From: Zanthoxylum bungeanum
Taxonomy: Eukaryota; Streptophyta; Magnoliopsida; Sapindales; Rutaceae
Assembly (NCBI GenBank): GCA_019454045.1
Contig: SKCR01029088.1
Location: forward strand, 124,001-188,000
Reading direction: 5' to 3'
Length of the DNA stretch: 64,000 bases
The translations under genes and the position numbers were made by a program. The number at the start of each line of letters is the position of its first letter. Position 1 is the stretch's first letter. The notes beneath the pieces are model-generated. The model did no database searches. It was given only the letters and a program-made list of their open reading frames with translations, and was not told where the DNA came from. Below are positions 32,842-55,104 of the stretch, piece after piece.

Positions 32842-32843
32842 AA

Positions 32844-32856
32844 CTCCCGCTTGCTT
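32844..32856 (-). promoter_or_regulatory. copia-B polypurine tract
   Basis: The minus strand reads AGCAAGCGGGAG immediately before the 3' LTR start TGTTGG, separated by two bases. This is the plus-strand primer site used in copia reverse transcription. Confidence 0.75.
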
Positions 32857-33099
32857 AGTGCCAATCCAGCTGGTACTGAAGTCTCATCTCCTCCACATAT
32901 TTCTCCTCCACATGTTTATCGAATAACTTATGAGTTAAGTCTTTAGTAAGCGGGTCTGTTATATTTTCTTGTCCTTGAACCTTTAAGACCAATATGTCTT
33001 TTCGTTCAATGATTTATCTAATCACACGATATTTCCTTTCCACGTGTTAAGACTTGGAATGCACTCTCGGCTCCTTAGCCTGCGCAATGGCTTCACTAT

Positions 33100-36000
33100 T
33101 ATCACAGTACAATGGGATCAAATCCTCAATACTAGGCACATGCCAAGTTTCGTGATAAAATTTCTAATCTAAATAGCTTCTTTAGAAGCTTTTGAAGCAG
33201 CTATAAATTTCACCTCAGTTATGGAATCAGTTGTTGAGCCTTGCTTTGACCATCGCCAACTAACCGCACCACCATTAAAGGTAAATATACATCCGGATGT
33301 AGACTTTCTACTATCCAAATCTACCTGAAAAGTCGAAGTCTGTATAACCCTTAACTTGTAGCTCATCTTCTCCATATATGAGAAACTTATCCTTATGACC
33401 CTTAAGATATTTTATGATATGTTTCATGACTATCCAATGATCATTACCTGGATCAGATTGATATCGGCTAGTCACACTGATGCCAAAACTGATGTTAGGT
33501 CCCGTACATAACATATCATGCATAATGCTTCCAATATAAGAAGTATATGGCAAGTTAGACATTCTAACTCTATCTTCCTCAGTCTGAGGTGTCATTTTCT
33601 TCGAAAGATGTATGTCGTATCAATAGGTTTTCACAATTTGCATCAATCATATATCATTCCCAATGATAAGGATACCGTCTACATACAATACAATGAATAC
33701 TATCATGCTCCCACTAATTTTCTTGATGAATTCATATAATTTAATTATCTCATCAAAATGACGATTCCAGCTTCGGGATGCCTGTTTAAGTCCATAAATA
33801 GACTTCTTCAGCTTGCAAACCAAGTTTGAAGTCTCATTGGATATGAAACCTTCTAGTTGTTCAATATAGATATCCTTATCGAGGAATCCATTTAGGAACG
33901 TGATTTTCACATCCATCTGTCATATATCATAATCGTGATATGCATCAATGACTAAAATAATTCTAATGGATTTTAGCATGGCTACTAGTGAAAAAGTTTC
34001 CTCATAGTCAATCCCAGGACGTTGAGTATAACCCTTCGCTACCAGTCGGACCTTAAAGGTTTCCACCTTTCTATCGGACCCTCGCTTCCTTTTATAAATC
34101 CATTTACAACCAATAGGTTTAATTCATTCAGGAAGTTTAACCAAGTCCCAGACTTGATTGTCATGCATAGAATCTATCTCGGACTTTATGGCATCCTGCC
34201 ATTTTCCCGAATCGATATCCAACATCTCCGATTTATACGTAGTTGGATCCGTTTCCTCCAAGAGGAGAATATCAAGGCTCATATTAGGTGTTAAAAATAA
34301 TCTCTCATGAGGCCTTGATATTATATTCGACCTACGTAGAACCTGTGTTTAGATCCTTCATCCAGTTGGATCTCTGTTTCATCTTCGGTTCCTCTATGTT
34401 GGGATCAAACTCATCGAGTTCAATCTTTCTACAGTTCTCACTTTCTCTCAGAAATTCTTTTTCAAGAAAAGTGGCAAAACGAGCAACAAATACATTTCGT
34501 TGCTCAGAATCGTAGAATTGATATCATAAAGAATTTTCAGGATACCCAACGAACCTATATTTATACCCCATGTGTACTAGTTTATCCCGCTACGTGACTT
34601 TAACATATGTGGGACAACCCCAAATCTTTAAATATCTAAGATTTTGATTTCTACCGTACCATATGAGATATGGGGTCGTAGAAACAGCTTTCAATGGAAC
34701 TTTATTAAGTATGTGGGTAGCAATAAGTAAAACGTAACTTGAAAAGTAATATGGAAGATATGTATAGCTCATCATAGATCGTACCATATTCAATGAAGTA
34801 TGATTTCTCCGTTCAGACACACCATTATGCTGAGGAGTTCCTGGTGGACTATATTGGGCAAGAATCTCATTCTCCCTTAAATAATTTTTGAATTCGTCTT
34901 TCTTGAATTCACCGCCACAGTCTGATCGAAGGCACTTGATGAATTTCCCAGTTTATTTTTCTATTTCGTTTCGAAATATTTTGAACTTTACAAATATTTC
35001 CGATTTATGTCTCATCAAATAGACATATCCATATCTTGAATTATCATCTATGAAAGTCATGAAGTATGTTGAACTATCATGAGCGACATGATTTAATGGA
35101 CCACACACATCACTGAGTACTAGTTCTAATAAATCTTCAGTACGGTGTCCATCACCAAGAAATTGGGCCTTTGTCATTTTCCCTTGGATACATGACTCCC
35201 AAATCGGATAAGGATCTAAGGTAAGATCTTCAATCAAAACATTCTTAATCAATTTTGATAGATGTATAAAACCTATGTGGCCCAATCTCATATGTCATAA
35301 TTCAGTATTATTTAATTCAGATCTTTTACTTGTGTTTTCTTTTATATTAAAGACATCTTTATATGTTTCCAAAACATAATGGCTGTTAGATAAAGAATAT
35401 TTACATATCAAATATTTTTCTTTATCATATAAACATAAAGCACCATCTTTAATGTTTATTTTATATCCCTCATTAGCCAATATTGGCAACGATATTATCT
35501 GTCTAATAAGAGATGATACATAATAACAGTCATGTAAAATTAATTTACATTCATTATGGAGATCTTGAACAACTGTTCATGTGGCTTTGATATTCAATAT
35601 CTCGCCATTCCCAACTCTAAGTTGGATTTCCCTTTGTTCAGCCTTTTTTTAACCCTTATAACCTACATGAAGTTGCAAATATGAGTGGGACTTCCGGTAT
35701 CTAATACCCATCCACTATTTGTATCTAAGGCTAATGAGATGTCAATAATAGGAAAAATATGATGTGTACCTGAGGGTTCTGCCTTTCCTTTCAGCTTTGG
35801 ACAATCTTTCTTCCAGTGTCTAGAATTCTTGTAGTGTAGATATGCATCACGAGCTATATACGGTCTTGTAGCTTTGTCCTTCGAGGAGTTTCTCTTTGAT
35901 ATCTTATTCTTTCCTATTTTTATTTTCTTTGACTTTCTAGAAGTCTTTAAAAAGCTTGCTTCACCATGGAGGTACAAAGTGGGATTGCCATTCTTTAAAT

Positions 36001-36586
36001 CATGCTATGTTGTGCGAAATATTTTATGAAGTTCTTCATAACTGACTTGCATCGAATGCATATGAAAGTTTAACACAAAGCCAATGTTAGTACCGAGGTA
36101 AAGAAGATATAATCAAATTTCGGCCTAACCGTTCATCGATCATAATGCTTTGTCGTTCCAAATATCGAATATGGTATATCATGTTCAAAACATAAATAAT
36201 GACCGATCTTTCATCCTTGAACGTAGCACAGAATAATTCCTTAGATATATTTCAATTTCTTTATTTGATTCGAATAACTCATTGAGTGTTCTCATAATGT
36301 TCCAAGCATCAGATACCTCTATGTACTGTCTTAACAAATCTGAAACTATCGATCCTAAAATATAGGATTTCACCTTAAGGTTATCATCCTTCCATTTTTC
36401 AAAAGTATCTCGCTCTTCAGGAGTGGAATTAGGATCGATTTCAACAGGCAATAGATTTATCATCACATAGTTCAACTTTTCTGACTCCACGACCAGACGG
36501 ATGTTCATTTCCCCTTCAAAATAGTTCTCGGCTCCTTTCAATTTATTAGAATCCAAAAGTTGTGATAATGGATTTGCAGCAGCCAT
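33100..36586 (-). pseudogene. copia-B gag-pol relic
   Basis: From right to left on the minus strand: gag (36586-36185, starts MAAANPLSQLLDSNKLKGAE; UBN2-type), a decayed zinc knuckle (HYKNSRHWKKDC near 35820) and protease VLDTGSPTHIC (near 35680-35710, catalytic DTG intact), pre-integrase (35291 downward, MRLGHIGFIHLSKL and LVLSDVCGP), integrase (SERRNHTSLNMVRSMM at 34820), reverse transcriptase (DVKITFLNG and ASRSWNRHFDEI with VLYVDGILI in place of YVDDI, 33916-33647), then RNase H (DSRKSTSGCIFTFNGGAVSW, 33340-33260). At least seven frame breaks; no function expected. The RT change of the second catalytic Asp to Gly is itself inactivating. Confidence 0.9.
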
Positions 36587-36774
36587 CTACAAGACAACAA
36601 TTAAACACTAACAGAACATCTTTATTTCAATATAAAAACACTAATACGATTATGGATTTTAAATCAATTAGTGTCCTCCTACTACTTTAAGTAATTCTGT
36701 AATCTCCTTTAACGGAAAAATAGAAATTTGACATCACAATTTCATAGCGGGAAGTGAATCCCATGATATTTACT

Positions 36775-37080
36775 CCAGCCTCACAATAATGATGGTCTTG
36801 GCCTTCATAAACTCATTAGGTAGACCTCCAAGTTCAATCACATTCATGTGACTCACAAGTTTGGTCTTGAACCGTTTATTATCCTCACAATAATGAGGTA
36901 TTGAATTAAGACGTATTCCAGGTGTATACTTGTCAATGTGTACTAATAAGCTTCGTAAGTACACCCTCACAATAATGACGGTATTGGGTTACTACGTTAA
37001 CTCATCACGCTACATCTAATATTTTACCGGAGCGACCGAAGTTCCGACCATTTATACCCTCACAATAATGACGATTGTGC
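36775..37080 (-). repeat. copia-B leader: four spaced copies of a ~22-bp motif
   Basis: Plus-strand text CCTCACAATAATGACGGTATTGG and variants occur near 36779, 36883, 36964 and 37058, between the primer-binding site and gag. The spacing mirrors that in copia-A. Confidence 0.7.
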
Positions 37081-37350
37081 ATAAGTAATAAGAACTCATT
37101 CATCTCTTTATTGACAATACGGATCATCCAATAATGCTCCAACATATTAATTCTAATACTTAAGAAAAAGTAATCACTTAATCATGGGAGATTTATGACA
37201 ATCAAGACATTAACATGTTTAGGTCAAAATAAAAATTTTAATTTAAAACATGCAATGCATATCCTATATGACTCATGTATAATTAAATTAAATTATAAAG
37301 GCATAGATTCAAATACATTTCAAACATGCAACATGAGTTATGTGGATAAA

Positions 37351-37366
37351 ACCTGCGCCGATACTA
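37351..37366 (-). promoter_or_regulatory. copia-B primer-binding site (initiator tRNA-Met type)
   Basis: The minus strand reads TAGTATCGGCGCAGGT three bases after the LTR end CCTAACA. This is close to the TGGTATCAGAGC-type site complementary to initiator tRNA-Met used by most plant copia elements, and it fixes the 5' LTR boundary at 37370. Confidence 0.8.
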
Positions 37367-39216
37367 TTTTGTTAGGACAGTTGTGGGACCCCTAGGGTCG
37401 GATCGGTCATGACGAACAGACTTAGGAGTCAAAATGCCCAATCTGTGAATGCTCGGTATCACGACATGCAAGGGTGAGCATCGTGATCCCCACAGCTCTG
37501 AGAGCTGAGTGTCGTGACGCCAGAGATCCGAGTAGAGATGCTGCCATGTGTAAAATGTTGGCAGTGAGCAAATTTATCTTGATACCAATCCAAAACACTT
37601 CCAATTTTCTCCAAACATTTCAATACACCTAAAAATCCAATTTTAACATCAAATCCAACATCAAAACATGTTATACAATAAACATACATGTATTATAAAT
37701 ACATTTATGCATTACTTTGAATTAAAACACAAACCAAATTAGAATCCCATAATGAGGTGACTTATGAACACTTCTATGTCACTCAAAGGTGGTCAAGTGA
37801 TTCTAGAATGGTAACCATAACTCCAAGCTATCATCTAGAGTTGTAAACTCTAATTTAATATTACATGTTCAACATGAAAATTTTGACCCAATCACAAGTA
37901 TAATGTGTTTATGCTTCCAAAGCATCCATACACAATTCATTTGCCTAATTTTAAAATCAAGCTATGTTATTATGTATTCAATACATAATACACCACTATA
38001 TGTTTCAATAATGATAATAACTCACTAATGAAAACACACCTTTAGAGAAGATCAAACTTACCTAGCAAGCTTAATTCTAAGATCCAATCTTTTTTCTCAT
38101 TGTTGAAATATTGTAGAGAACTTCCAGAGCTAGCAAGCTTGACTCGAAGATTCAATCTTATTCTCCTTATTGTTGTAGAGATCTTCCAACGCTAGTAAGC
38201 TTGATTCGAATATCCAATCTTCTTCTCATTATTGTTGTAGAAAACTTCCAAAGATTCTCCAAAAAAACTTTACTTAGGCTAATATTTCTTTCTTTTGCTT
38301 AATGTTTGTTTAAGATTATTTTATCTTGTTTAAAAACTTGCTCAAGCTTGCATTTTATAGCAAAACTTATGCAATTTTTAATCAATAAAAGTCTTAATCA
38401 ACTTTTATGTGGGCTTAATCAATTTGTCGAAATATGTATAATTAGATGTGACTAATCACCTTTGTCTACCAATTTGATTTAATCCAATTAAATCAAGATA
38501 AAGTTTAATCAGTGGATTAGTTCAATGTTTACCACTTTGATTTAATCCAATTAAATCAAGCCAAATACATTTATTATTATACATTTATAATTACCAAATT
38601 ATTCTCCAATGGTATAGATATTTATGAAATTACAACGAAACCCTTGTGTGATTTTGGATTAATTCAATTAATCTAATTGGGTCAAAGTAAATAATTAATG
38701 TTATCCAATAACACTTAATTATTTTAATTGATAATTATTTTATCAAATATTTTTTATTATCAAACAGTATTGACTACCTAAACGTTCAACGAGTACACTT
38801 CATATTATGAGACTCTCTAAATCCAGACATGTTCGTCATACAAGCTTAGCTTATATGTACTCAATTCTGCCACCTCCAAATTTATGAAGAACACGAACAA
38901 CCTTTCTAAACAATACAAGTCGAGGTCATCATATATGTTTAATAAACACACCCAACAAACATCAGTGGTTAGACCATGAAAGGTCTCTGACATATATGGC
39001 ATCAAAGTGTGGAAGATCACACACAAAATCAATGTTATCATATAGTCAAAGGATCATATATTCTACTCGACTCGAGGAGATTTCTATTGACAATGATGTG
39101 TACTTCCAACTATTTAGAATCACATGAGAGTCATTCGGTATTCACTCCAATGAATACCCACATATCTATACGACATTCTCTTGCTCATAATATATCGAGT
39201 TAAACCATTGGAACTC

Positions 39217-41364
39217 TGACCGGTGCGTAATCACACAAATATAACGCAAGCGCATGTATCGTTCAAGTAGTATAAAAAGTATCGATCCCACGAGGACTTA
39301 AAACCTTTGCTATTAATTTTTTATGAGGTCAAATGTTTACAAGTATCTAATAGATTGATTGTTTGATTGGGTGGTGACTTTAAAACTTAAAACAAGTAAA
39401 TAAATTTCTTGAAAGTAGATTGAAGAAAATTCAAATTTATAAAACTATCCAGGGTTGTGAATCCTTCCAATATCTATTAAAGATGAAGTGGTTATCTTAC
39501 AGTTGGGTAATATATTAATTTATTAACCTGGAACACTAAATTATGTAAAAGCCTCTTCCGATGGTCGATTACAAATACCCAGTATAACCCAATTGAACTA
39601 TATGTCTATGTCAACCAAATTACTGGATTCATTAAGTTTAAGTTCCAATTATGGCTACCCCCGCCCGACAGGTATATTCCTATCCTGTAAGGAAATCTAT
39701 TAAAGGGTTATCTATCCTCAAGGAAGATCGTGGGCTATTGAGTCTAAGGTCTTTAACCTAAAATCCATTTTCCAAGTTCATTTTAAGTTTACCTAATCAA
39801 TTTTATTAATGGCTAGTTATAAAAAGCATTAAGATTAAGACTCAATAAATAAACATTTATATTACCCAAGGTATAATCTAACCCCTTATAAACCGGTGAT
39901 ATTGGATTTCATCACAACCCCAGATAACTGGCTTAGTTACGACATATATTTACGGATAGTAAAAATTTAAATAAAATAAAAGACATAAAATAAAATACTG
40001 AAAATTAAATATTGAAAAGTAAATTGCTGAAAAGTAAATTGCTGAAAAGTAAAAAAAAAAAGTTAAAAGTTAAAGTAAAAAGTAGAAAAAAAAAGTAAAT
40101 TGCTGAAAGTAAATTGCTGAAGAGAAAATTGCTGAAAAGTAAATTACTGAAATTAAATAAAGTAAAAGTACAATAAAAGAAAATGATGGGGTTAGAGGAT
40201 CAACTTTTATTACTACTATTTTAGATATCTCCCTTAATATAATATATTAACTTTACGTGATAATTACCAACCAGCCATAAATGCGGTATCCTGATTAAGT
40301 CAAATTAATAATTAATTACCAACCGACCAACCAGGCGGTATCCATACTTAGTCAGGTTAAAACCAATTTATAATTAATTACCAACCGGCCAATATAGCGG
40401 TATCCTCATTAAGTCAAATTTTAAATAGTTTATATATTATAATTAAGGGAGATTAATCTAAATAGTAATAATAAAAGCTTTACCTTTCACCCCAGCAAAG
40501 GGGAATTACCTCCTCATTGCTTGAAAAATAAAAACTGCAAAAGTAAAGAAAGGAAATGATTGTGCGTAAAAGTAAATTGCGGAAAGTAAAAACTGAAAAA
40601 TAAAGAAAAGAAAGTGCGAAAGCGGAAATTAATTACTGAAAGCTGTAAATAAACAAACAAGATACAATCTTCTTATTTATTCTTTAGGAATTTCAAAGAA
40701 GAAAGTATGAATTTTAAATGAAATGGCTTGGTATTTATAGGCAAAATTTTGCCTCCGTCAAATCATCTATCAAATTCTCCACCAAATCCATTATTAATTT
40801 CTCCACTAATTACTCCACCAAATCCATTATTAATTGCTCCACTAATTGCTTATCATGTTTGGTGATGATTTGATGATTTGATGATTTATTTATTAATTTA
40901 TTTTTTTGCTTTGAAAATGATTGAAAATGACTTTAATAATTACACACAACACACTTCTGGATGGTTCATCAATATCGGTCATGAAATATTCAGAATTCGA
41001 ATATATTTTGTCTTTCAAAGTTGTAGATCTTTGAGTCTTCTTTAATCTGGCACTTGAATCAGCTCAATCCGATATCGGAGTAAAAAGTTATGCCAAAATA
41101 CGACAGATGTGCAAAACTGGAATTTCCAAAACTGCACTTTGTCAAAAACGCCATTTCAAGTTTCCAATCTCCAAAATTAAAATATCAAGTCCAATAATTG
41201 CCCTTATTTGACCCATATTTTGTCCTAAATAATTTCATTGAGACCCGATATTATTTTATCTGCAAAATAAACTAAAACACATCAAAACGTTCATCAAACC
41301 CGAGAAACTAAACAAAATATTAAGTTAAAGGGGCGGTAAATATTGATATATTTTCCGCTCATCA
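39217..41364 (-). mobile_element. 3' LTR of the Athila-like element (2148 bp)
   Basis: Near-identical to 47014-49157. It contains, on the plus strand, a minisatellite-like AAGTAAATTGCTGAA run (40015-40150), a three-copy ~60-bp GCGGTATCCTNATTAAGTC module (40262-40440), a TATAAATA box near 40733-40740 (minus strand CCTATAAATACC), and a CCACCAAATCCATTATTAAT tandem (40775-40850). Confidence 0.93.
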
Positions 41365-41379
41365 CACCCCCAAACCTAA
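41365..41379 (-). promoter_or_regulatory. Polypurine tract of the Athila-like element
   Basis: The minus strand reads TTAGGTTTGGGGGTG directly before the 3' LTR start TGATGAG. Position and composition fit the plus-strand primer of gypsy reverse transcription. Confidence 0.8.
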
Positions 41380-42660
41380 CATTTTGCTAGTCCTCGAGCA
41401 AAAAAAAAATATATATATATTAAACTAAGCCACTTTCGTAGGGATCACGGTTGCATTTAGCGTATGCAACAAGCCTTTAAACCCCTAGGTGTCCCTAGTG
41501 GACGAGTTGTAGTCTCGTGAGGGTTTACAGCAATGATACCCACAAACATTTTACAAAAGTAAAATGGTAGTAAAACTAATACACACAAAAGCAAAAAGAC
41601 AAGAGAAAAGAGAATAAAGAAAGTTAGTGACTAATCAGGTGAAACTTCTACTCCAAGTTACTAGTTGTTTTGTTTCTTTCTAAATTACCGAATAAGTAAA
41701 TTCTCCGATTATATTTACCATTCTCCATATACAAGCCAACAAAGTATTAATCAATCTCATTTTTGCCCACAACAGTCACAAGTGTAGTTGATAAGAGAGT
41801 AATATTTTTGTCCTAAAGTTCTATCAGATTTCACACCTTTTTTATGGCAATGGAATAATTTTTTTGATTTTTTTTTAAATATTTTTTTTATTTATATACA
41901 ATATCTTCCGTCTATGTAGCAAGCTTTAGGTCGGTGGCTCCCAAACCAGTTGGCTTTAGGGCACCAGGTTTAAGACACCCCTATGGACTTAATTACTCAG
42001 ACTTTAGATATATATATTTTGGAACATCCTCGATCATGTAGCGAGCTTTGGACTAGTGACTCCTAAACCAGTTAGCTTTAGGGCACTGGGTGTTAAGACA
42101 CCCTTACAGACTTAATAACTCGGATCTCGGATGTTTTTTTTTTTTACTCCATCACTTTCGGAGATGCTTCCTCCATTTAAACTAGAGCATTGAATATTAC
42201 AAACTTTTCAATTATAGCTCATGTCTGTATGTTTCCATGTATGTTGATAATACCTGTCAACTGAGCATATGAAGATCCATTTTAGTCCGTTTTATGGAGA
42301 ATTTACAAATTAAATAATTTAAAATGAAATAAACAAAAATTAACTTGTTTCGAAATAGGTTTGAGATACGTCTCAGGAGTGGAAACTCCTTACTCAGCTA
42401 TCTCTTACCAATTTCACTTTTTTTTAAGTCAAAATAAAAACACAAAAACGCAAAGTATTTTTGTAATTTTTGAAAATTTTTCAATTTTTTGTATTTTTCG
42501 AAAAAATTTGAACTAAAAATAAAAACAACACACAACTAAAAAGAAGATACTAATCAACTAATTCCCTCCCCCAAACCTAAATGAGACATTGTCCCCAATG
42601 TCTTAAACAGTAGAAGAAGAGTTTAGAAGATAGTACCTGGTTAGATGAAATTCTACACGA
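41380..42660 (-). other. Untranslated 3' internal region of the Athila-like element
   Basis: No coding sequence. A roughly 122-bp tandem duplication at 41905-42148 carries GTAGC-AAGCTTTAGG and TTAGGGCACCAGGTTTAAGAC-type text twice. The remainder is AT-rich. The CTCCCCCAAACCTAAATGAG text near 42565 recurs in part at the polypurine tract. Confidence 0.6.
41905..42148 (-). repeat. ~122-bp tandem duplication in the 3' untranslated region
   Basis: Unit 1 (41905-42026) and unit 2 (42027-42148) share CATGTAGCGAGCTTTGG-like, CCTAAACCAGTTAGCTTTAG and TTAAGACACCC-type blocks in the same order, with moderate divergence. Confidence 0.75.
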
Positions 42661-42664
42661 AAAG

Positions 42665-43317
42665 TTAAAGGTTAAGATCCAGATTAACACGACGCCTCTT
42701 ACCACGATCATCCTCGGACCAATTTATCTTTGAAAGGATAGGGTCAACTTGTGGTTCATAGGCTAAGATTTGGTCAATTAGATCCGGAGCAGTTCTGGCA
42801 GTAAAGAGGAGTTCTTTCATAGGTTTTGACAAGAACCCATTTCTTCGAGCATCATCAAGAAACAAACAAAGAAAATCATAAAATCCTTCAACGTTGTACA
42901 GTCCAAGCGGTTTCTGGTGTATGTTCAGGTTCACCCAAGATAACACTGTAAAAATTTCTCTAATGTACCCAAGCCACATGGCAAAGCAATAAAAGCATCA
43001 GCACGGTTAATCATTTCTACCAGTCGTTCAGACATACCTGGCACGATCAGTTCCTCTCCGTTTGATGATCCAATAAGATTTGCCTCTGCCAAGGGTTTTG
43101 GGATGATTCCTAAAATGTTACTACCTCCTTCATATACGGCCTTTGAAACGATCGCCATTAGTCCAAGATTGCCTCCGCCATATACTAAGTGCATATTTCT
43201 TGCAGCTAAGACTCGACCTAATTCTTGTGTTGCTTCTACGTATTGTGGTTTAGTACCAACACTACTACCGTAAAACACACAGATGTTTTCAACTCGTCTT
43301 CTTGAAGTGGCTTCCAT
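42665..43317 (-). pseudogene. Intronless LOG-family copy carried by the Athila-like element
   Basis: The minus-strand ORF 43317-42931 starts MEATSRRRVENICVFYGSS and contains HLVYGGGNLGLM (44-54), MSERLVEM (about 95-102) and ADAFIALPCGLGTLEK, the LOG signature with the second Gly of PGG retained and the first changed to Cys. The frame shifts by one base near 42955; the next frame (to 42665) continues the family: LSWVNLNIHQKPLGLYNVEG, then a C-terminus ending NLDLNL. Joined length is about 217 codons, normal for LOG. No intron interrupts the five positions comparable to introns 1-5 of the host LOG gene, so it was copied from spliced RNA. The MSERL block and C-terminus mark a LOG subclass different from 15710-19407. 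The frameshift lies at the active-site signature, so this copy should be inactive unless bypassed. Confidence 0.93.
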
Positions 43318-43369: not shown

Positions 43370-43406
43370 CTGAAAAGGGTGAGTAAAATAATAGCACTAG
43401 TACCTG
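43370..43406 (-). promoter_or_regulatory. Splice-acceptor-like sites upstream of the LOG copy
   Basis: On the minus strand, CATTTGGCAG (AG at 43405-43404) and CCCTTTTCAG (AG at 43371-43370) lie 50-90 bases before the LOG copy's ATG. They would allow a spliced RNA to present this ORF. Inferred from sequence only. Confidence 0.4.
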
Positions 43407-43707: not shown

Positions 43708-44118
43708 TCATCCACTGGGATGCGTCTCAAGAGTTTTAGATATGTCATCCAAAGACTCCTTACTCAAGCCATCCCTAATGACGTTAATCTTATCTTCGCG
43801 GTTATCAGACACCATTCCTAAATAACGACAACGAGTATTACAAAACATGCGAGCACATTTATAACAAACACACATTCTTTTGGCTCTTCTCTTTTTAGCA
43901 TAAGTGCTCCTTCCTAAACCAGGCAGATGTGAAATAAAAGAGTCAGAAGACTCACCTGCCAATCGGACCCGTGCTTCAATAATCCAACGAATGTCAGTAG
44001 GAATACATTTGATCATCAGTAGTCTCATCCGTTCCAAACGAGCTTTGTAGTCTTTTATCAGAGATTTTTGAGGGAGAGAAGGAAATTGCTTGTGAAGTTT
44101 TGCGAGAGCTTCTTCCAT
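43708..44118 (-). CDS. Unrecognised Cys-rich ORF in the Athila-like element
   Basis: An intact 136-codon ORF starting MEEALAKLHKQFPSLPQKSL (an in-frame ATG at 44151 lies upstream, before a splice-acceptor-like site). Features: an N-terminal charged helix-like half, a basic patch KKRRAKR, then five Cys within 15 residues (MCVCYKCARMFCNTRC), which could bind zinc, and a polar C-terminus ending THPSG. It is not gag, protease, RT, RNase H or integrase, and I do not recognise a family. It lies between the pol remnant and the LOG copy in the same orientation. Unlike gag and the LOG copy it has no frameshift. It may be a second captured host sequence or an accessory retroelement protein. Confidence 0.6.
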   Translation of the reverse strand: MEEALAKLHKQFPSLPQKSLIKDYKARLERMRLLMIKCIPTDIRWIIEARVRLAGESSDSFISHLPGLGRSTYAKKRRAKRMCVCYKCARMFCNTRCRYLGMVSDNREDKINVIRDGLSKESLDDISKTLETHPSG

Positions 44119-44216: not shown

Positions 44217-46007
44217 TTAAGCTGGATCTAAAAGTGTAACACATTCTTTTTGTCGCTCAAATGATTCTCCCCAGTAGTGCTTGACACGCTTGTTTTTAAC
44301 CTTGAAAGTTTTGTTGGAGTCAGGATCATGTATCTCAACGGCTCTGTCTTGTAAAACCTTGGTGATCACAAATGGACCTGACCACCGTGATTTTGGCTTC
44401 CATGGGAAGAATTTCACCCTTGATTTGTTTAACAGTACCTTCTGCCCTGGTTCCAGTTGTATGCGCACTAACTTCTCATCATGTCTTTTCCTTGCCTTTT
44501 CCTTGTACAATTTAGCATCCTCAAAAGGCTGTATGTGAAATTCCTCAAATTCGTTGAGCTGGTGGAACTTTTTCTCTTTTGTTGCTTGTAGTGCAAGAAT
44601 AGGCTTCTTCAGTACGCAATGCGCTTTATCTTCAGGCTCCACAGGTAATTGACATGTTTTAAGTTTGTCAGTAGAACTTTGTCTTTCATCAGAGTTCTGA
44701 TCGGTACTATGTATCACATCAAGTCTGAAATATTCCTTATTCTTTTCATCATCTGAGAAATTCATGGCCTTGAAAACATTGAATGTTACTTCTTGGTCTT
44801 GTACCCTCATGGTTAGTTCTCCTTTTTGTACATCAATAATGGTTCGACCTGTAGCCAAGAATGGTCTCCTGAGGATGATTGGCACGTCTGCGTCTTCCTC
44901 CATATCAAGGAAAATGAAATCTGTTGGGAAAATGAATTTGTCAACCTTGACTAGCACATCTTCAACTACACCTCTCGGAAATACGAGCGTTCTATCAGCA
45001 AGTTGTAGTGAGACTGAAGTGGGCATTGTTTCTCCAATCTGCAGTTTCCTGAAAATTGAAAAAGACATCAAGTTAACACTAGCACCTAAGTCATGTTCTC
45101 CTATAGTGCAAGGAACAGTGAAACTGCCAGGATCTTTCAACTTTGGAGGAAGTTTTCTCTGAATGATGGCGTTGCATTCTTCTGATAATGCTATTGTCTC
45201 ATAATCTCCCAATCTCCGCTTTCGTGAAAGAATGTCTTTCATAAATTTGGCATAGCTGGGCATTTGTTCCAACGCTTCTGCAAATGGAATGTTGATATGC
45301 AGCTTTTTGAACACCTCCAAGAATCGAGCAAATTGCTTGTCCAGTTTATTCTTCTGAATACGCTGAGGAAAAAGTGTAGGTGGAGTGATCTGTTCTTTTT
45401 CCTTTTCTTCTTTTTCCTCCATCTGTTGCTTTGTTTCTTTTGGAACTTCCTCAGCAGTTGTTTTGGCTCCAACATCTTTGTTGATTTCAGTACCACTTTT
45501 TAACATGATGGCATGACATTGCTTCTTCCCCATGTTCCTCGGATTTGGTTCAGTGTTGCTAGGAAGGTAACCTGGCGGTCTGTAACTCTGAGCATTAGCC
45601 AGTTGTCCAATTTGATTCTCCAATGCTTTAATAGAAGCTGATTGACTTTGAATTAATGCTGCTTGGGATTGAAATATAGCATCATATCTTGCTGCTTGAG
45701 AGTCATGATTTGCTTCTATCTTTTTCAAGTGATTCAACACTTCTGTTATTCCTGATTCATTTGCCTGCTCCTGGCCTTTGTTTTGTTGTTGGAATCTGGG
45801 TTGTGGATTGTTCATTTGCCTTGAATTGTTGCTCCATGCGAAATTGGGATGATTCCTCCACCCTGGGTTGTAGGTGTTGGAATATGGATTGTTCCCCTGT
45901 CTGTTGAAATTTTTGACATAATTCGCCGTTTCTTTATGATGGTTGAAAGATTCTGACTCAGGTGCTCCTCCAATTGGTGAACTTGTGGATCCACCATTAA
46001 CTTTCAT
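44217..46007 (-). CDS. Gag C-terminus and aspartic protease fused in frame to an integrase tail
   Basis: A 596-codon open frame. Residues ~25-75 are the Asn/Pro-rich gag end typical of Athila (NPYSNTYNPGW and following). 85-140 is a Gln/Ala-rich helical region, 180-210 is Glu/Lys-rich, and 285-410 is the retropepsin-like protease with the catalytic block HDLGASVNLM (Asp306) and ILRRPFLATGR. Around residue 454 (about 44650) the sequence switches without a stop to the C-terminal end of an Athila integrase: LNEFEEFHI, LYKEKARKRHDEKL, then KSRWSGPFVITKVL and FKVKNKRVKHYWG. Reverse transcriptase, RNase H and the integrase catalytic core that should lie between are missing. The long intact frame suggests selection or recent origin. 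The gag N-terminal part lies upstream (46884-46008), separated by a one-base shift near 46022. Confidence 0.9.
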   Translation of the reverse strand: MKVNGGSTSSPIGGAPESESFNHHKETANYVKNFNRQGNNPYSNTYNPGWRNHPNFAWSNNSRQMNNPQPRFQQQNKGQEQANESGITEVLNHLKKIEANHDSQAARYDAIFQSQAALIQSQSASIKALENQIGQLANAQSYRPPGYLPSNTEPNPRNMGKKQCHAIMLKSGTEINKDVGAKTTAEEVPKETKQQMEEKEEKEKEQITPPTLFPQRIQKNKLDKQFARFLEVFKKLHINIPFAEALEQMPSYAKFMKDILSRKRRLGDYETIALSEECNAIIQRKLPPKLKDPGSFTVPCTIGEHDLGASVNLMSFSIFRKLQIGETMPTSVSLQLADRTLVFPRGVVEDVLVKVDKFIFPTDFIFLDMEEDADVPIILRRPFLATGRTIIDVQKGELTMRVQDQEVTFNVFKAMNFSDDEKNKEYFRLDVIHSTDQNSDERQSSTDKLKTCQLPVEPEDKAHCVLKKPILALQATKEKKFHQLNEFEEFHIQPFEDAKLYKEKARKRHDEKLVRIQLEPGQKVLLNKSRVKFFPWKPKSRWSGPFVITKVLQDRAVEIHDPDSNKTFKVKNKRVKHYWGESFERQKECVTLLDPA

Positions 46008-46884
46008 GTTAAGAGTTTCCAGATTTTACAAATCACATTCAGCTTGGAATTCAGTGCTGTGTTGGCTCCAACTTCATAAATTCCTGCAATTCTTTGAATC
46101 ATGCTCCTTTCTGTTGGCCACAAGGAGTTTTTGTTGGCCATTTCTTTAATTAAGTCCCAGGCTTGATCTTCTCCTTTTGCCATCAAAGCTCCTCCAGCAG
46201 CAGCATCAATTGTGGTTCTCATTATTCCAGAAAGTCCATTGTAGAAGGTTTGGACTTGTAGCCACTTTGCGATCTCATGATGAGGACATTTCCGGAGTAA
46301 ATCTTTGAATCTTTCCCAAGCTTCGCAAATGGATTCTAATCTTGTTGCACGAAGGATGTGATGTCATTCCTCAACTTTGCAGTTCTGGCTTGTGGTGGAA
46401 AGTACTTTGCAAGGAATTTGGTGGCTAGAGTGTTCCAAGTTGTGATGGAACCTGCTGGTAACGAATGTAGCCAAGCTTTAGCTCTGTCATTCAAGGAATA
46501 TTGAAAAATTCGCAGTCTCATTGCTTCTTCTGATGCTCTGTTGTAGTTGAAAGTGTCGCAAACTTCCAGGAAGTTACTGATGTGGGCATTAGGATCTTCA
46601 GTTGCATTTCCCCCAAACTGTACTGACTGCTGAATCATCTAGATGCATGTTTTGATGTCACCCGCATTTGCTGGTAAAGGAGGAAGTACAATACAGGAAA
46701 TGAAGCCGTCAACCACCGAAATGGTTCTGTCTCGAATGGGAATTGGTGGTGCAACCTCCAAAGGTTCAGGTTCCATGTTGACTAAAGCTTCTTGGCCTTC
46801 TCGTCTTTCCCTTCTCAACTGTCTGATGGTTCTTTCAATTTCTGGGTCAAGCGGTCGAAGTTCAAAGCTTCTGGTTCGTCTCAT
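46008..46884 (-). pseudogene. Athila-type gag N-terminal region (broken)
   Basis: Starts MRRTRSFELRPLDPEIERTI. An in-frame TAG at 46641-46639 precedes MIQQSVQFGGNATEDPNAHI and the gag core (FLEVCDTFNYNRASEE, KAWLHSLPAGSITTWNTLA, KFLAKYFPP). A one-base shift near 46330 moves the frame to EAWERFKDLLRKCPHH and MANKNSLWPTERSM, and a second near 46022 joins the downstream 596-codon frame. The gene would make the capsid protein. The lesions are few and simple, so the reading frame was intact until recently. Confidence 0.9.
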
Positions 46885-46915: not shown

Positions 46916-46990
46916 CAAAAACAATAAGTAAAAAAAATTAGATACAAGTAACGTATCTAACCCCTAAACTAATAGTGAAAGATAAATAAG

Positions 46991-47008
46991 TCTCCGGCAA
47001 CGGCGCTA
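46991..47008 (-). promoter_or_regulatory. Primer-binding site, tRNA-Asp type
   Basis: The minus strand reads TAGCGCCGTTGCCGGAGA five bases after the 5' LTR end. It matches the complement of the 3' end of plant tRNA-Asp (TGGCGCCGTTGCCGGGGA) with two mismatches. Athila elements characteristically use this primer. Confidence 0.85.
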
Positions 47009-47013
47009 AAACT

Positions 47014-49157
47014 TGACCGGTGCGTAATCACACGCGTATAACACAAGCACACATATCGTTCAAGTAGTATAAAAAGTATCGATCCCATGAGGACTTAAAA
47101 CCTTTGCTATTAATTTTTTATGAGGTCAAATGTTTACAAGTATCTAATAGATTGATTGTTTGATTGGGTGGTGACTTTAAAACTTAAAACAAGTAAATAA
47201 AATTTCTTGAAAGTAGATTGAAGAAGAAAATTCAAATTTATAAAACTATCCAGGGTTGTGAATCCTTCCAATATCTATTAAAGATGAAGTGGTTATCTTA
47301 CAGTTGGGTAATATATTAATTTATTAACCTGGAACACTAAATTATGTAAAAGCCTCTTCCGATGGTCGATTATAAATACCCAGTATAACTCCAATTGAAC
47401 CATATGTCTATGTCAACCAAATTACCTGGATTCATTAAGTTTAAGTTCCAATTATGGCTACCCCCGCCCGACAGGTATATTCTATCCTGAAGGAAATCTA
47501 TTAAAGGGTTATCTATCCTCAAAGAAGATCGGGGCTATTGAGTCTAAGGTCTATTTATCCTAAAAATCCATTTTCCAAATTCATTTTAAGTTTACCTAAT
47601 CAATTTTATTAATGGCTAGTTGATAAAAAGCATTAAGATTAGGACTCAATAAATAAACCTTTATATTACCCAAACTATAATCTAACCCCTTATAAACCGA
47701 TGATATTGGATTTCATCACAACCCCAGATAACTGGCTTAGTTACGACACATATTTACGGGTAGTAAAAATTTAAATAAAATAAAAGATATAAAGTAGAAT
47801 ATTGAAAATTAAATACTGAAAAGTAAATTGCTGAAAAGTAAAAAAAAGTAAAAAGTAAAAAGTAAAAAAAAAAGTAAATTGCTGAAAAGTAAATTGCTGA
47901 AGAGTAAATTGCTGAAAAGTAAATTACTGAAATTAAATAAAGTAAAAGTACAATAAAAGAAAATGATGGGGTTAGAGGATAAACTTTTATTACTACTATT
48001 TTAGATATCTCCCTTAATATAATATATTAACTTTACGTAATAATTACCAACTAGACATAAAGGCGGTATCCTGATTAAGTCAAATTAATAATTAATTACC
48101 AACCGACCAACCAGGCGGTATACATACTTAGTCAGGTTAAAACCAATTTATAATTAATTACCAACCGGCCAATATAGCGGTATCCTCATTAAGTCAAATT
48201 TTAAATAGTTTATATATTATAATTAAGGGAGATTAATCTAAATAGAAATAATAAAAGCTTTACCTTTCACCCCAGCAAAGGAGAATTACCTCCCCATTGC
48301 TTGAAAAATAAAACTGAAAAAGCAAAAGTAAAGAAAGGAAAAGATTGTGCGTAAAAGTAAATTGCGGAAAGTAAAAACTGAAAATAAAGAAAAGAAAGTG
48401 CGAAAGCGGAAAGGAAATTAATACTGAAAGCTGTGTAAAAATAAACAAACAAGATACAATCTTCTTATTATTCTTTAGGAATTTCAAAGAAGAAAGTATG
48501 AATTTTACAAATGAAATGGCTTGGTATTTATAGGCAAAATTTTGCCTCCATCAAATCATCCATCAAATTCTCCACCAAATCCATTATTAATTTCTCCATT
48601 AATTACTCCACCAATCCATTATTAATTGCTCCACTAATTTCTTATCATATTTGGTGATGATTTGATGATTTTATTATTTATTTATTAATTTATTTTTTTA
48701 CTTTGAAAATGATTGAAACTGACTTTAATAATTACACACAACACACTTCTGGATGGTTCATCAATTTCGGTCATGAAATATTCAGAATTAGAAAATATTT
48801 TGTCTTTAAAAGTTGTAGAACTTTGAGTCTTCTTTAATCTGGCACTTGAATTAGCTCAATCCGATATCGGAGTAAAACGTTATGCCCAAAATACGACAGA
48901 TGTGCAAAATTGGAATTTCCAAAACTGCACTTTGTCAAAAACGCCCTTTCAAGTTTCCAATCTCCAAAATTAAAATATCAAGTCCAATAATTACCCTTAT
49001 TTGACCCATATTTCGTCCTAAATGATTTCATTGAGACCCGATATTATTTTATCTGCAAAATAAACTAAAACACATCAAAACGTTCATCAAACCCGAGAAA
49101 CTAAACAAAATATTAAGTTAAAGGGGCGGTAAATATTGATATATTTTCCGCTCATCA
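47014..49157 (-). mobile_element. 5' LTR of the Athila-like element (2144 bp)
   Basis: Same repeats and TATA-like CCTATAAATACC (near 48530) as the 3' LTR. It ends TGACCGG at 47014 and TCATCA at 49157, directly beside the AACTC duplication. It would drive transcription toward lower coordinates, through gag, the fused frame, the Cys-rich ORF and the LOG copy. Confidence 0.93.
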
Positions 49158-49484
49158 AACTCCAATTCCAATATATAACATGTGCTAGTCTTCTAGGTTA
49201 TAGGAATTCGACTGTATTATAAAACCAACAACTATGAATATTTGTTTTAAAAATAGTTTATAGTAGTAATATTATCCCGGATCACCCAATGTCAAGTATT
49301 ACTACATAACTGCTCTAAGGTCGATGTCATTCTTAGCATATTTATATATCAATCTAATATGCATAATGGCATTACCATTAACAAGGTTGAAATAAAAATG
49401 TATTTATTTTATTAATAAATAATAAAATATAATGTACAATACATTATTCGAATTGGTGCTCCAAGCACCAACTCCAACACACAC

Positions 49485-50938
49485 ATCACTGTGTACTAGC
49501 TCCAATAAATCTTCAGCACGGTGTCCAACACTAAGAAATTGGGATTTTATCATTTTCCATTGGATATATTACTCACAAATCAAATAAGGATCTAAGGTAA
49601 AATCTTTATTTAAACCATCTATAACTAATTTTGATAGACGTTTAAAACCTATGTGGCCCAATCTCATATGTTATAATTCAATATTATTTAATTCAAATCT
49701 TTCACTTTTATTTTCCTCTATATTAAAGACATCTCAATATGTTTCCAAAACATAATGATCGTTAGATAAAAAAACATTCATATATCAAGTTATTGTCTTT
49801 ATCATATAAACATAATGCATCATATTTAATGTTTATTTTATATCCTTCTTTATCCAATATTGGTAACGATATTGTCTATCTAATAAGAGAGGGTACATAA
49901 TAACAGTCATGTAAAATTAATTTACATCCATTAGGGAGATTTAGAACAACCGTTCATATGGTCCTGATATCCAATGTCTCGCCATTCCTAACTCTAAACT
50001 ACATCTCCCTTTTGTTTAGCCTTCTTTTAACCCTCATAACTTGCATGAAGTTTCAAATATGAGTTGGACTGCTGGTGTGTAACTCTTATCCATTATTTTA
50101 ATCTAAGGCTAATGAGATGTCAATAATAGGAAAAATACAAAGCATACCTGAGGGTCCTGCCTTTTCTTTAAGCTTTAGACAATCTTTCTTCTAGTGTCCA
50201 GACTTCTTGCAGTGTAGACATACATTACAAGCTACATGCAGTCTTGTAGTTTTTTTCTTCTTAGAGTATCTATTTGATATCTTCTTCTTTCCTATTCTGA
50301 CCTTTTTCGACAACCTAGAAGTATTTGAAGAGCTTGCTCCACCATAGAGGTACAAAGTGGGTTTGTCTTTCTTCAAATCATTCTCCGCCATGCGTAAAAT
50401 GTTATGAAGTTCTTCATATCTGGCTTGCATCGAATGCATATGAAATTTTAACACAAATCCAGCGTAAGTACTGGAAAAAAAGAAAAAATCAAATTTCAGC
50501 CTAGCCATTCATCGATCATAATGCTCTGTCATTCCAAATATCAGATCTGATCTATCATGTTCAAAAAATAATATTGACCTCTCTTCCATCCCTGAGCCTA
50601 GCATGGAATGATTCTTTAGATCTCCAATAAATTTCAATTTCTTGATTTGCTTCGAATAACTCTTTGAGTGTTCTAATAATGTTCCAAGCATTAGATACTT
50701 CTATGTATTTTCTGAGAAAATTTGGAACCATCGATCCTAAAATGTGAGATTACACCTTTAGGTTATCATCCTTATATTTTTTAAATGTCAACCACTTTTC
50801 GAGAGTGGAATCAGGATCGATTTCGACAGGCAATGGATTAAGTGTCAGATAGCTCAATCGCTCTGACTCCAAGATAAGGCGAATGTTCATTTCCCACTCA
50901 AAATAGTTCTCGGCACTTTTCAATTTATTAGAATCCAA
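49485..50938 (-). pseudogene. copia-A gag, protease and integrase start (broken)
   Basis: From right to left: a gag start with DSNKLKSAENYFEWEMNIRL (50938-50750), further gag (50691-50509, and 50508 downward with MHSMQARYEELHNILR), a zinc-knuckle-like CNVCLHCKKSGH near 50200-50230, then decayed protease and pre-integrase sequence to 49485. The parts match copia-B gag and pol in order. Frames are broken in several places. Confidence 0.8.
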
Positions 50939-51159
50939 AAGTCGCGCTAATGGATTTGCGACCGTTATCTACAAGATAATAATTAAACATTGTCATGACA
51001 TTTTTATTTCAATATAAAAACACTAATACGATTATGGATTTTAAATCTATTAGTGCCTTCCCACTACTTTACATAATTCTGTAATCTCTCTTAATGGAAA
51101 AATAGAAATTTGACAATCAAAATTTCATAGCGGGAAGTAGATCCTATGATACTTACTTT

Positions 51160-51465
51160 AGCCTCATAATAATGATAGTATTGGCCTTTATAAACTCATT
51201 AGGTAGACCTTAAAGGTCAATCACATCTATGTGACTCCTAAGTTTGGTCCTGAACCGTTTCTTATCCTCACAATCATGACGATATTGGATTAAGACGTGT
51301 TCAAGGTGTATACTTGCCAATGTGCACTAATGAGCTTCGTAAGTACACCCTCACAATAATGATGGTATTGGGTGACTACGTCAACTCATTATACTACATC
51401 TAATATTTTACCGAAGCGACCTAAGTTCTGACCACTTATACCATCACACTATTGACAGTATTGCA
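51160..51465 (-). repeat. copia-A leader: four spaced copies of a ~22-bp motif
   Basis: CCTCACAATAATGATGGTATTGG-like motifs (plus-strand text) lie near 51165, 51268, 51346 and 51443. The copia-B leader has the same series at similar spacing. Confidence 0.65.
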
Positions 51466-51663
51466 CATAAGTAATAAGAAATCATTCACATTCGTATTGA
51501 AAAAACGGATCATCCAATAATGCTCCAACATTATTAATACTATCACTTAAAAGTAATCACCTAATCATGGGAGATTTATGACAATATCTTAAAACATGCA
51601 ATGCATATCTAATATGACATATGCATAATTAAATTAAGATTACAGAGGCAAAATTCAAATACA

Positions 51664-52358
51664 TGACTTACTCACATGATACCTTAACCCCTTATGGTAC
51701 ACATACGGACCGACGGATCCTATCTTGATACACACTTGATTAAAAAGTGCATCAGTCTACATCCAACGAACATCTAGCGATCATACCATGAAAGGTCTCT
51801 GACATACATGGCATCAAAGTGCGAAGGATCACACACAAAATCAATATTATCCTATAGTCAAAGGATTACATATGCTACTCGACTCGAGAAGATTCCTATT
51901 GATGGTGGTGTGTACTTCTAATTATTAGGAATCACCTGTGAGTCATTCAATATTCGCTCCAACAAATACCTACATGTCTATACGAGCTTCCCATGCTCAT
52001 GGTTTATCGGGTTAAACCATTGGAACTCCAATTCCAATATACGACATATGCTAGTCTTCTAGGTTATAGGAATTCGACCGTATTCTAAAACCAACGTCTA
52101 GGAATACTTATTTTAATTATAGTTTATAATAGTAATATTATCCCAATATCGGACCACCTAGTTTCCAATATTGCTACATGACTATTCTAAGGTCAATGTC
52201 ATTCTCACCAAAATTTATATATCAAACTTATATGCATTATGACATAATAATTACTATTAATTAGGTTGAAATGAAAATATAGTTATTTTATTGATAAATA
52301 ATAAAATATAATGTACAATACAATATTCAGATTGGCGCTCCAAACACCAACTCCAACA
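51664..52358 (-). mobile_element. copia-A 5' LTR, partial
   Basis: About 695 bp homologous to 32150-32841 of the copia-B LTR. It ends CCAACTCCAACA (plus strand), the TGTTGG end of the LTR in element orientation. The part next to the primer-binding site is deleted, and the leader joins the mid-LTR at 51663/51664. Confidence 0.8.
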
Positions 52359-52965: not shown

Positions 52966-54379
52966 ATTCCAAAATTAAATAATTCACCTTCATAATTACC
53001 AAAGATCTAAATTCAATTAATAATTCACTCACCAAATTTAAAGATATTCCCCACCAAAATTACATAATTTATTTCCCTTTTAAAATTAATTAAAATACAC
53101 ACATGTCTAATTGATTTGTTTCCTTTTCAAAACCCATGCATAACCCTAATACATCACTATAAAAATAACACAAAACCCTAAACTCCCTGGGCTTCTCTCA
53201 TTCAACATTCATGGCAACTTTTCCAAGAAAAATAAACCCTAAGCTTCACGCCACTGCATCTCTCTCTCTCGACCCCACTGGCTCATTCTGACCAAAAACC
53301 ACAAAGAAACCCTAGCCTACTTCACGCATCCAATAACCCTAAGCAGCCCCAATTCACGCACACCACGATAACACTCACGTAACAAGCCTTCAACAGCCCC
53401 ACTCACGCCTAATAAACTCCACAGCAGCCCCTCAACTTCACAAATCAAATCTGTCCATTCAACAGCCCATTCAACGCCACCTGCCTCCTTCAACACTCAC
53501 GCATAAAACCCCCACTGCACACGCACAACACTGCCCTTCACAGCTGCGAAAACATCCCCCACTGCACACATAAAAACGCTCACTGCCCATCACCGAATAC
53601 TGCTCACTGACCAGCCACTGCACGGACAAAAACACTCACTGCCCACCACCGAAAACTGCACATTGTCCAGTCCCTTAAACTGCCGCACATACCCTCATAA
53701 AACTGCCCAGTTTGCCACGTATTAGACCCCTGAAAACGCCCCTGAAACTGCCCAGAAACTGTCCTAAAACTGCATTAAAAACTGCCCATAAACCCTTCCA
53801 AAATCGTAACCTAACACACCTCCAAAATCGCCAAAACAGTCCCTTATTTACCTTAAAATAGTGACCAGAAAATACAGTGAAAACAGCAGCGAAACAGAGT
53901 GAAAACAGCGGCCCAAACAACAAAACAGTGAATAAAAACATTGAACCAGTGAACCGGAAGAGTTGTGGAGCATCTACCCTTCCGACAGCCGTGTAACACG
54001 CCTTCGAGAGAGGACAAAAGAGGTTAGACCTGAGGGCACCTTCTTTATTTATCATCTTTTGTTTTTCTATTTATTTTAGTACTTTATTTCATATGAGTAT
54101 TGTGGATTGGTGCATGATGGATTTCCGGATGAACGGAATATATGTTCTCTCTTGTGGTATATCGGATGGAAACCCGGACGTAAATTCCGTAGCCGAATTT
54201 GAATGGACGGTATTGCTGTTTGCACTCGGGATACAATGCAACGTACCACTTGAGAGATTCACACATTTCGTTTCATCCAACCTTGCGTTTTAAGCATGAT
54301 TTAGTCATTAGTATGTTATTTTTAAGCATGATTTAGTCGTTAGTGTGTTATTACTTTCTGCATGTTACTTATTTATGCA

Positions 54380-55060
54380 TGATGATATAGTGCGCATGGG
54401 CTAACTAGGGTGGATTAAAGGTCCTCTATTCGAGGGAAAAGCCAAAGGGCTACCTTTGCCACGATGTTTTGCCGCGCCGGACGAAGTATGTTTGATTGAA
54501 TGTGAGATATGTTTAATCGGATATACAGAGTTCCATATTATTGTCTCATTCATTTGTATGCATTGTAATATAATGCGCATGGGCTAACTATGGTGGATTA
54601 AAGGTCCTCTATTCGAGGGAAAAGCCAAAGGGCTAGCTTTGCCACTATGTTTTGCCGCGCCGGCCGAAGTATGTTTGATTGAATGTGAGATATATTTAAT
54701 CAGATATACGGAGTTCCACATTATTGTCTCATTCATTTGTATGCATTGTAATATAATGCGCATGGGCTAACTAGGGTGGATTAAAGGTCCTCTATTCGAG
54801 GGAAATGCCTGAAGGCTACCTTTACCACGATGCTTTACCACGCCTTTTATTATGTCATTTACCATTTGCATACCATTGCTTTATTTATGCATACATTGCA
54901 TTATAATGCGCATGGGCTAACTAGGGTGGATTAAAGGTCCTCTATTCGAGGGAAATGCCTAAGGGCTACCTTTACCACGATGTTTTGCTGCGCCGGACGA
55001 GGTGCACTCGATTGAATGTGAAATATGTTCAATGGGGCATACTAGTCCTACATCGTGTAT
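54380..55060 (+). repeat. Tandem array, 183-bp period
   Basis: GCGCATGGGCTAACTA starts at 54392, 54575 and 54758 (period 183) and at 54908 (shortened, 150). Each unit continues with GGATTAAAGGTCCTCTATTC, a TACCTTTGCCACGATG-type block and a CGCCGGACGAAGTATG-type block. The LTR at 61743 has related units at 63310, 63496 and 63645. Confidence 0.92.
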
Positions 55061-55104
55061 TTATTCAATCATAGGTGTGTTTGTGTCATTTCAGATGCCA
55101 TTTT

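Follow-up and report, generated by a model that had tools for sequence, protein, structure and literature searches.

LONELY GUY-type and virus-type zinc-finger genes recur together in an Athila-like retrotransposon family of Zanthoxylum bungeanum

Introduction

Why should a long terminal repeat (LTR) retrotransposon carry a gene of the cytokinin-activating LONELY GUY (LOG) family, and is that gene a stray passenger or a working part of the element? The question is raised by an element in a stretch of 64,000 nucleotides of Zanthoxylum bungeanum DNA (assembly GCA_019454045.1, contig SKCR01029088.1, positions 124,001 to 188,000, forward strand), the whole of which we call the window. We found that the LOG frame recurs in an element family together with an upstream frame for a zinc-finger protein of plant-virus type, that most sampled copies retain the LOG motif residues, and that both frames are under purifying selection in the lineage producing new copies. 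We consider it probable, at roughly 0.7, that the window element is a decayed member, lacking reverse transcriptase (RT), of an Athila-like Ty3/gypsy family with tandem 3' accessory genes, for a cysteine-rich nucleic-acid-binding protein of virus type and a phosphoribohydrolase of LONELY GUY type, acting through the mechanism proposed below.

Results

The element and its flanks comprise the following features, in window coordinates (ORF, open reading frame).

39212 to 39216, unstranded: left target-site duplication, AACTC, from the sequence
about 39217 to 41364, minus strand: 3' LTR, from repeat comparison
41365 to 41376, minus strand: polypurine tract, GGTTTGGGGGTG, adjoining the 3' LTR
42565 to 42578, minus strand: internal purine tract, GGTTTGGGGGAGG, downstream of LOG
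42665 to 43317, minus strand: LOG-family gene, intronless, with a single frameshift near 42955 and the C-terminus KRRRVNLDLNL
43370 to 43371, minus strand: candidate splice acceptor, CTCACCCTTTTCAG followed by GT, 54 bp upstream of the LOG ATG, from sequence conservation
43404 to 43405, minus strand: candidate splice acceptor, TTTTCATTTGGCAG followed by GT, 88 bp upstream of the LOG ATG, kept across subfamilies
43708 to 44118, minus strand: zinc-finger ORF, intact, 136 amino acids, Viral_NABP (PF05515) and Carla_C4 (PF01623)
44220 to 44612, minus strand: integrase C-terminal remnant, fused directly to the protease region, assigned by eye and by position in relatives
44220 to 46638, minus strand: gag-protease region in three shifted frames, gag from PF03732 and protease by eye
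46990 to 47013, minus strand: primer-binding-site region, AGTTTTAGCGCCGTTGCCGGAGAC, from the sequence
47014 to 49157, minus strand: 5' LTR, TGATGAGCGG...ACCGGTCA, from repeat comparison
49158 to 49162, unstranded: right target-site duplication, AACTC, from the sequence

The 2.1-kb LTRs differ by a Kimura two-parameter (K2P) distance of 0.034 over 2,117 aligned positions, which at substitution rates of 1.3e-8 and 7e-9 dates the insertion to 1.3 to 2.5 million years ago. Elements of the Athila lineage have long LTRs and a primer binding site of the tRNA-Asp type; judged by eye, the primer-binding-site sequence of the window element may be of this type. The domain order of that lineage is represented by a gypsy gag in the window copy, two pieces of which match PF03732, and by RNase H followed by integrase in two relatives, L051 and L059. 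The window element is without RT, RNase H and the integrase core, and its 602-residue protease-integrase frame, which has no Pfam match, was identified by eye and from its relatives. LOG, in the same sense as gag, occupies the position of env, with the integrase C-terminal remnant on one side and the 3' LTR on the other. A preliminary description of this DNA had placed an intronless LOG there, in an Athila-like element with AACTC duplications, and the coordinates, the match to PF03641 and the LTRs confirm this.

The LOG gene starts with MEATSRRR at 43317, ends with a stop codon at 42667-42665 on the minus strand, and is split into two frames by a shift of a single base near 42955. Both halves match PF03641 (E = 7e-16 and 2e-11; 59 and 44.5 bits against a cut-off of 27), and the nearest solved structure is for both a plant LOG, the best for the first half being 2a33, Arabidopsis At2g37210 (1e-32). 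LOG phosphoribohydrolases are recognized by the signature PGGxGTxxE and a preceding Arg. The window copy reads PCG in place of PGG, a substitution overlooked in the preliminary description, and its frame breaks directly after; Cys occupies the first-Gly column in six of the 58 loci introduced below, the window copy included. Since about 0.4 stops and 3.2 indels are expected in LOG from the LTR rates since insertion, the single frameshift amounts to ordinary decay. It had been read as a loss in this copy, and indeed none of the 57 other sampled loci has its match broken there.

The assembly from which the window comes holds 3.96 Gb in 51,709 contigs. Of 47,331 first-look candidates from a search with PF03641, the best 150 were scored, and of 6,412 from a DNA search with the window LOG, 40 were; the larger figures are of unscored candidates and are not LOG copy counts. 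The best 150 PF03641 matches were all above the cut-off, intron-free and complete over at least 130 of the 131 domain positions, and 147 were stop-free within the match, so that the relatives with an open LOG frame considered in the preliminary description do exist. All 40 scored DNA matches, including the window copy, cover positions 1-650 at 94-100% identity. The genome search by which other LOG-bearing copies were to be found therefore yielded 39 other DNA matches and 150 family matches.

We studied 58 loci, 30 picked by DNA similarity (L014-L043, where L014 is the window) and 28 by Pfam score (L006-L013 and L044-L063). LOG is present in all of them by construction; the zinc-finger frame is not. 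A zinc-finger frame, whole or partial, lies upstream of LOG in 50 loci (49 of 57 when the window is set aside); seven have another, unnamed ORF there, and one (L044) has neither. Arg98 is kept in 54 of the 58, again counting the window copy, and Glu121 in 55; in the PGG motif the first Gly is kept in 51 and the second in 56. Premature stops in LOG comprised 12 found in a single copy, three in two copies and three in three or more, and the LOG proteins of L010 and L060 match PF03641 positions 1-131 with 127.9 and 126.7 bits. A purine-tract string, GGTTTGGGGG, is present in 53 of the 58 loci.

These counts bear on the possibility that the LOG sequence reflects a chance event, either a LOG pseudogene that landed in one copy or passenger DNA free of selection. 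The frameshift in the window copy would fit such an event, as would a 9-bp direct repeat, TAGTACCTG, that brackets LOG at 42631-42639 and 43398-43406, a weak sign because a 9-mer is shared by 4.3% of shuffled flanks. Nevertheless, the pairing of LOG with an upstream zinc-finger frame in 49 of the 57 other loci and in-frame selection with out-of-frame controls, described below, leave this explanation with next to no credit. A single-copy accident is rejected by the other DNA and family matches, the recurring zinc-finger neighbour and selection, and the case that the preliminary description had named as refuting, in which no other copy carries LOG, is excluded.

The zinc-finger ORF at 44118-43708 had itself been overlooked. 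Its 136-residue product matches Viral_NABP (2e-8) and Carla_C4 (4e-5) and has the pattern C-x2-C-x4-C-x3-C after a basic YAKKRRAKR stretch. Viral_NABP was found in all four copies scanned (34.9, 26.8, 29.9 and 26.9 bits against a cut-off of 23; E = 6e-6, 7e-7 and 5e-6 in the three other than the window), and Carla_C4 was above its cut-off in three (window, L010 and L060) and below it in L013. Among the 50 matching loci, some of whose matches do not cover the site, Cys 85, 88, 93 and 97 are kept in 40, 42, 42 and 42, and the basic YAKKRRAK stretch together with the four Cys in 36-42. A single-sequence structure model of the protein was too poor for use (predicted local distance difference test score, pLDDT, 42.9). 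The cysteine-rich proteins of carlaviruses, allexiviruses and mandariviruses similarly have a basic stretch followed by a four-Cys finger, and both of their Pfam models exceed their cut-offs in L010, L060 and the window copy; in contrast to them, the present gene is encoded by an LTR element, and the likeness is one at the level of Pfam models. No relative of the zinc-finger frame was confirmed among viral contigs.

If new copies decay neutrally and are bred solely by working genes, variants private to one copy should look neutral, while shared variants should be mostly silent. We took as shared those variants present in three or more copies, and excluded two-copy variants and multi-base codon changes. 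For LOG, nonsynonymous to synonymous (N:S) counts in 28 DNA-chosen copies were 130:40 for singletons vs 25:26 for shared variants (p=3.9e-4), and in 54 copies 204:67 vs 53:72 (p=4.9e-10), where the neutral expectation is 2.5-3.3 to 1. For the zinc-finger frame, the corresponding counts were 102:16 vs 20:26 in 24 copies (p=6e-8) and 117:26 vs 29:30 in 35 copies (p=5e-6). Controls shifted out of frame by one or two bases had no surplus of silent shared changes; LOG frame 2 departed the other way (p=0.037 and 0.002), and zinc-finger frame 1 came close to doing so (p=0.064), as expected because the true third positions vary most. Keeping duplicate copies gave a like result.

Pairwise ratios of nonsynonymous to synonymous divergence (dN/dS) for LOG fell from 0.28 to 0.20 as dS rose among 16 intact Pfam-chosen copies, a set biased to conserved copies; among 20 DNA-chosen copies they went from 1.26 in the lowest dS bin to 0.37-0.46 above dS 0.1. 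For the integrase C-terminus the range was 0.47-0.79 across 24 copies of the DNA-chosen set and 0.10-0.59 across six intact copies chosen by Pfam. We give these ratios without error because pairs are not independent, and we prefer the comparison of singletons with shared variants because conditioning on low dS inflates dN/dS, which for LOG reaches 1.26-1.31 in the bin of lowest dS. The N:S contrast and the dN/dS of 0.20-0.28 thus bear out purifying selection on the LOG frame, which the preliminary description had put forward as a check.

The lack of RT is shared by further copies. The window's protease-to-integrase junction is spanned by one match in 25 of the 57 other loci (27 of 59 rows, with the window appearing twice), many of the remaining loci being too short to tell. 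Because the junction recurs, the form without RT has spread and does not reflect damage to a single copy. Upstream of two RT-less copies, L068 and L069 also have gag where RT would be. In a further group (L045, L048, L051, L054, L059, L060 and L061) the match does not begin until residue 456, and three of these were scanned. Upstream of LOG, L051 and L059 have RNase H, H2C2 and the integrase core rve, with H2C2 below its cut-off in L051, and L060 has the integrase zinc domain H2C2 and the core rve, after which the zinc-finger and LOG frames are both open. Replication genes therefore do occur in elements that bear LOG.

The seven loci with a different upstream ORF (L006, L007, L008, L012, L055, L057 and L062) have another frame there instead of the zinc-finger gene, with no Pfam match above cut-off in L008, and constitute another LOG-bearing subfamily. 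At L010:1081-1992, no stop closes the LOG frame on its upstream side, where it runs into a hydrophobic stretch, TFLVIIISRCLFLIIVICFVVFFYFL, that lacks a Met ahead of the usual start; this extension may be due to chance or may be an env-like remnant.

Where did the element LOG come from? The window contains a host LOG gene at 19407-15713 on the minus strand, whose seven exons confirm the six introns given in the preliminary description, and the element LOG reads through all six intron positions. Capture through spliced RNA, as proposed there, may fairly be inferred from the intronless copy; the window's host LOG and three other host LOG genes are not the recent donor. With a protein identity of 43%, which had gone unremarked (pS, the proportion of synonymous differences, 0.82 and saturated; pN, its nonsynonymous counterpart, 0.39), the window's host LOG is not a recent source. 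In a tree of 133 columns and 25 rows (15 element LOGs, L067, four host LOGs, At2g37210, At5g11950 and three bacteria), the 15 element LOGs and L067 form one group (support 100/99) apart from the host, Arabidopsis and bacterial rows. Both the window's host LOG, on its identity and its separate group, and three further intron-bearing host LOG genes, on their separate group, were rejected as recent donors. The element LOG group sits on a long stem branch and the root of the tree is arbitrary; since branches are long and the root is arbitrary, we limit the claim to the sampled host genes not being recent donors.

Repeated recent capture from host LOG genes, which are present in the genome, could mimic selection. 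We consider this very unlikely, given that the 15 element rows and L067 group apart from the four host genes and the two Arabidopsis LOGs, and that among the four host genes examined none was seen with the C-terminal tail of the element LOG. A bacterium or other non-plant donor, in place of a plant transcript, would be in keeping with the position of the element LOG on a long branch outside the sampled plant LOGs, and the bit scores of its C-terminal half against Bacillus YvdD and At5g11950 are 43.8 and 44.9, respectively. The plant LOG structures nearest to both halves argue against such a donor, which we regard as unlikely. A prokaryote genome collection gave no confirmed match to the N-terminal half, and to the C-terminal half three bacteria with 35-38% identity over part of it, so a bacterial donor is not favoured; long branches make the placement unsure. 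Viral contigs gave two partial LOG matches at 41%.

One tree row, L067 (G000:C739:201900-204600), is a divergent intronless LOG that is 59% identical to the element LOG and has the tail KKRRLDIDLN; the family purine tract was not found in the stretch fetched. Whether a second LOG-bearing repeat or an old relative, it is left unplaced.

The tail KRRRxNLDLNL marks the element group, and most of its residues are kept in 46-55 of the 58 loci. It is not found at the three host LOG ends covered (those of the window gene, L064 and L066; the fourth host gene is L065). We take LDLNL to be a repression motif like that of ERF-associated amphiphilic repression (EAR). The element LOG also has Leu, next to the conserved Arg, at a column with Lys in the four host LOGs and both Arabidopsis LOGs (HQRKA/HERKA). 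It is conceivable, if doubtful, that the LOG-derived protein was repurposed, with help from the basic stretch and the LDLNL tail, as a structural or nuclear co-factor rather than a cytokinin enzyme. The tail, the Lys-to-Leu change and the long stem branch are all compatible with repurposing; the retention of Arg98, PGGxGTxxE and the YGGGNL stretch in most loci argues for the enzyme.

In two sets of 29 and 28 copies, which include distant ones, 93-100% retain the candidate splice acceptors at positions -88 and -54 relative to the LOG ATG. The one at -54 lies inside the best conserved 30-bp non-coding block of the divergent set (0.93 identity vs 0.43-0.88 elsewhere). Three more pyrimidine-AG sites are listed, and one at -18 is also kept. 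This pattern of conservation suggests an env-like spliced message for LOG.

Discussion

We propose that LOG was captured long ago via spliced RNA and that, like env, it may be expressed as protein from a subgenomic RNA made by splicing. Its product would raise active cytokinin at sites of element transcription, which would favour dividing meristem or germ-line cells. According to the relevant section of one report, the viral relatives of the zinc-finger protein act as silencing suppressors, and p12 of chrysanthemum virus B is a transcription factor that causes hyperplasia (PMC12172455). By analogy, the element's zinc-finger protein may bind nucleic acid and blunt silencing or alter transcription. 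As a tentative possibility, the two genes could together form a host-manipulation cassette in the env position, in which a flexivirus-type zinc-finger protein for silencing suppression or growth-altering transcription is joined to a cytokinin-activating LOG. Such a cassette would push cells where the element escapes silencing to keep dividing, and would be a plant counterpart of a retrovirus with a growth gene, but one that selection maintains family-wide.

Several observations weigh against a family with two working accessory genes. The window LOG copy cannot work, because of its frameshift, its PCG and the missing RT. Judged strictly, 17 of the 29 DNA-chosen and 11 of the 28 Pfam-chosen copies have a broken LOG (intact in 12 and 17), and the zinc-finger frame is broken in 23 of 29 and 14 of 28 (intact in six of each set, with eight of the 28 having none). 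The loci were picked for holding LOG, so that the counts apply to LOG-bearing copies of the family. Additionally, the Lys-to-Leu column and the long stem branch mean that the chemistry of the element LOG may have changed.

That Athila elements can carry LOG is already known, a precedent missed by the preliminary description. Steinbauerova et al. 2011 (Genetica 139:1543) reportedly found two Athila-like elements with an extra ORF similar to LOGL4. Those elements reportedly share with the present family the Athila lineage and the LOG-like extra ORF; the present family differs in its many copies, in-frame selection, conserved motif and tail, and virus-type partner ORF.

A published survey identifies a YgdH/LONELY GUY domain in LTR elements of Citrus sinensis and C. 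clementina, with at least five consensuses per Citrus species, and under a laxer filter in elements of Populus trichocarpa, and calls the finding 'in line with' Steinbauerova et al. 2011 (PMC9289625). These are likewise Gypsy-type elements with a LOG-type domain; however, the section concerned names the domain only, with no selection test, partner gene or anatomy. The same source describes Ogre-like elements of orchids with an AlkB N6-methyladenosine (m6A) demethylase, an enzyme that viruses also encode. There too a host-type enzyme is fixed as a Ty3/gypsy accessory gene, but enzyme and lineage are different, and AlkB activity was shown in vitro.

The env-like ORFs of Athila, as treated in a review (PMC7264820), are also sense accessory ORFs between pol and the 3' LTR; here an enzyme and a zinc-finger gene replace the env-like protein. 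According to the review, a transduced gene in an LTR element is found in a single copy or a few, and antisense accessory ORFs are without similarity to viruses; the present sense ORFs, multi-copy and virus-like, depart from this pattern.

In literature searches that left subscription journals mostly outside, we found no report of a virus-type partner or of selection on LOG. Searches on LONELY GUY, YgdH or LOGL4 in Athila or retrotransposons gave no report beyond PMC9289625 among the papers listed, and those on carlavirus-type nucleic acid binding proteins with retrotransposons or Athila nothing relevant by title and abstract start. What we did not find in print is therefore the virus-type pairing, a test of selection or the division into two kinds of subfamily.

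In this multi-copy element family, then, selection maintains a gene whose enzyme family activates a hormone, and a plant-virus-type gene usually stands in tandem with it. What plant genes in the env position do can be tested directly on two proteins with biochemically characterized relatives. The findings also carry a warning for annotation, in that an intronless LOG frame of this type, even when intact, may belong to an element rather than to the host and could swell gene-family counts.

The LOG element is nested in older repeats at 29813-39216 and 49164-52358, which include the pairs 35102-37318 and 49478-51664 (83%) and 30448-31974 and 37411-38945 (86%), as well as a Copia-like integrase fragment, recognized by eye, at 34590-34952. 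Elsewhere in the window, about 830 bp at 1731-2567 share 77-79% identity with the LOG element's LTRs; the stretch 1411-2567 as a whole lies in the opposite orientation to that element, its left part at 70-71%, and is a piece of an older LTR from a related element. Gypsy RT-like remnants, again recognized by eye, occur at 57204-58237, and mutually similar repeat arrays at 54369-55694 and 63288-64000 generate long repetitive ORFs.
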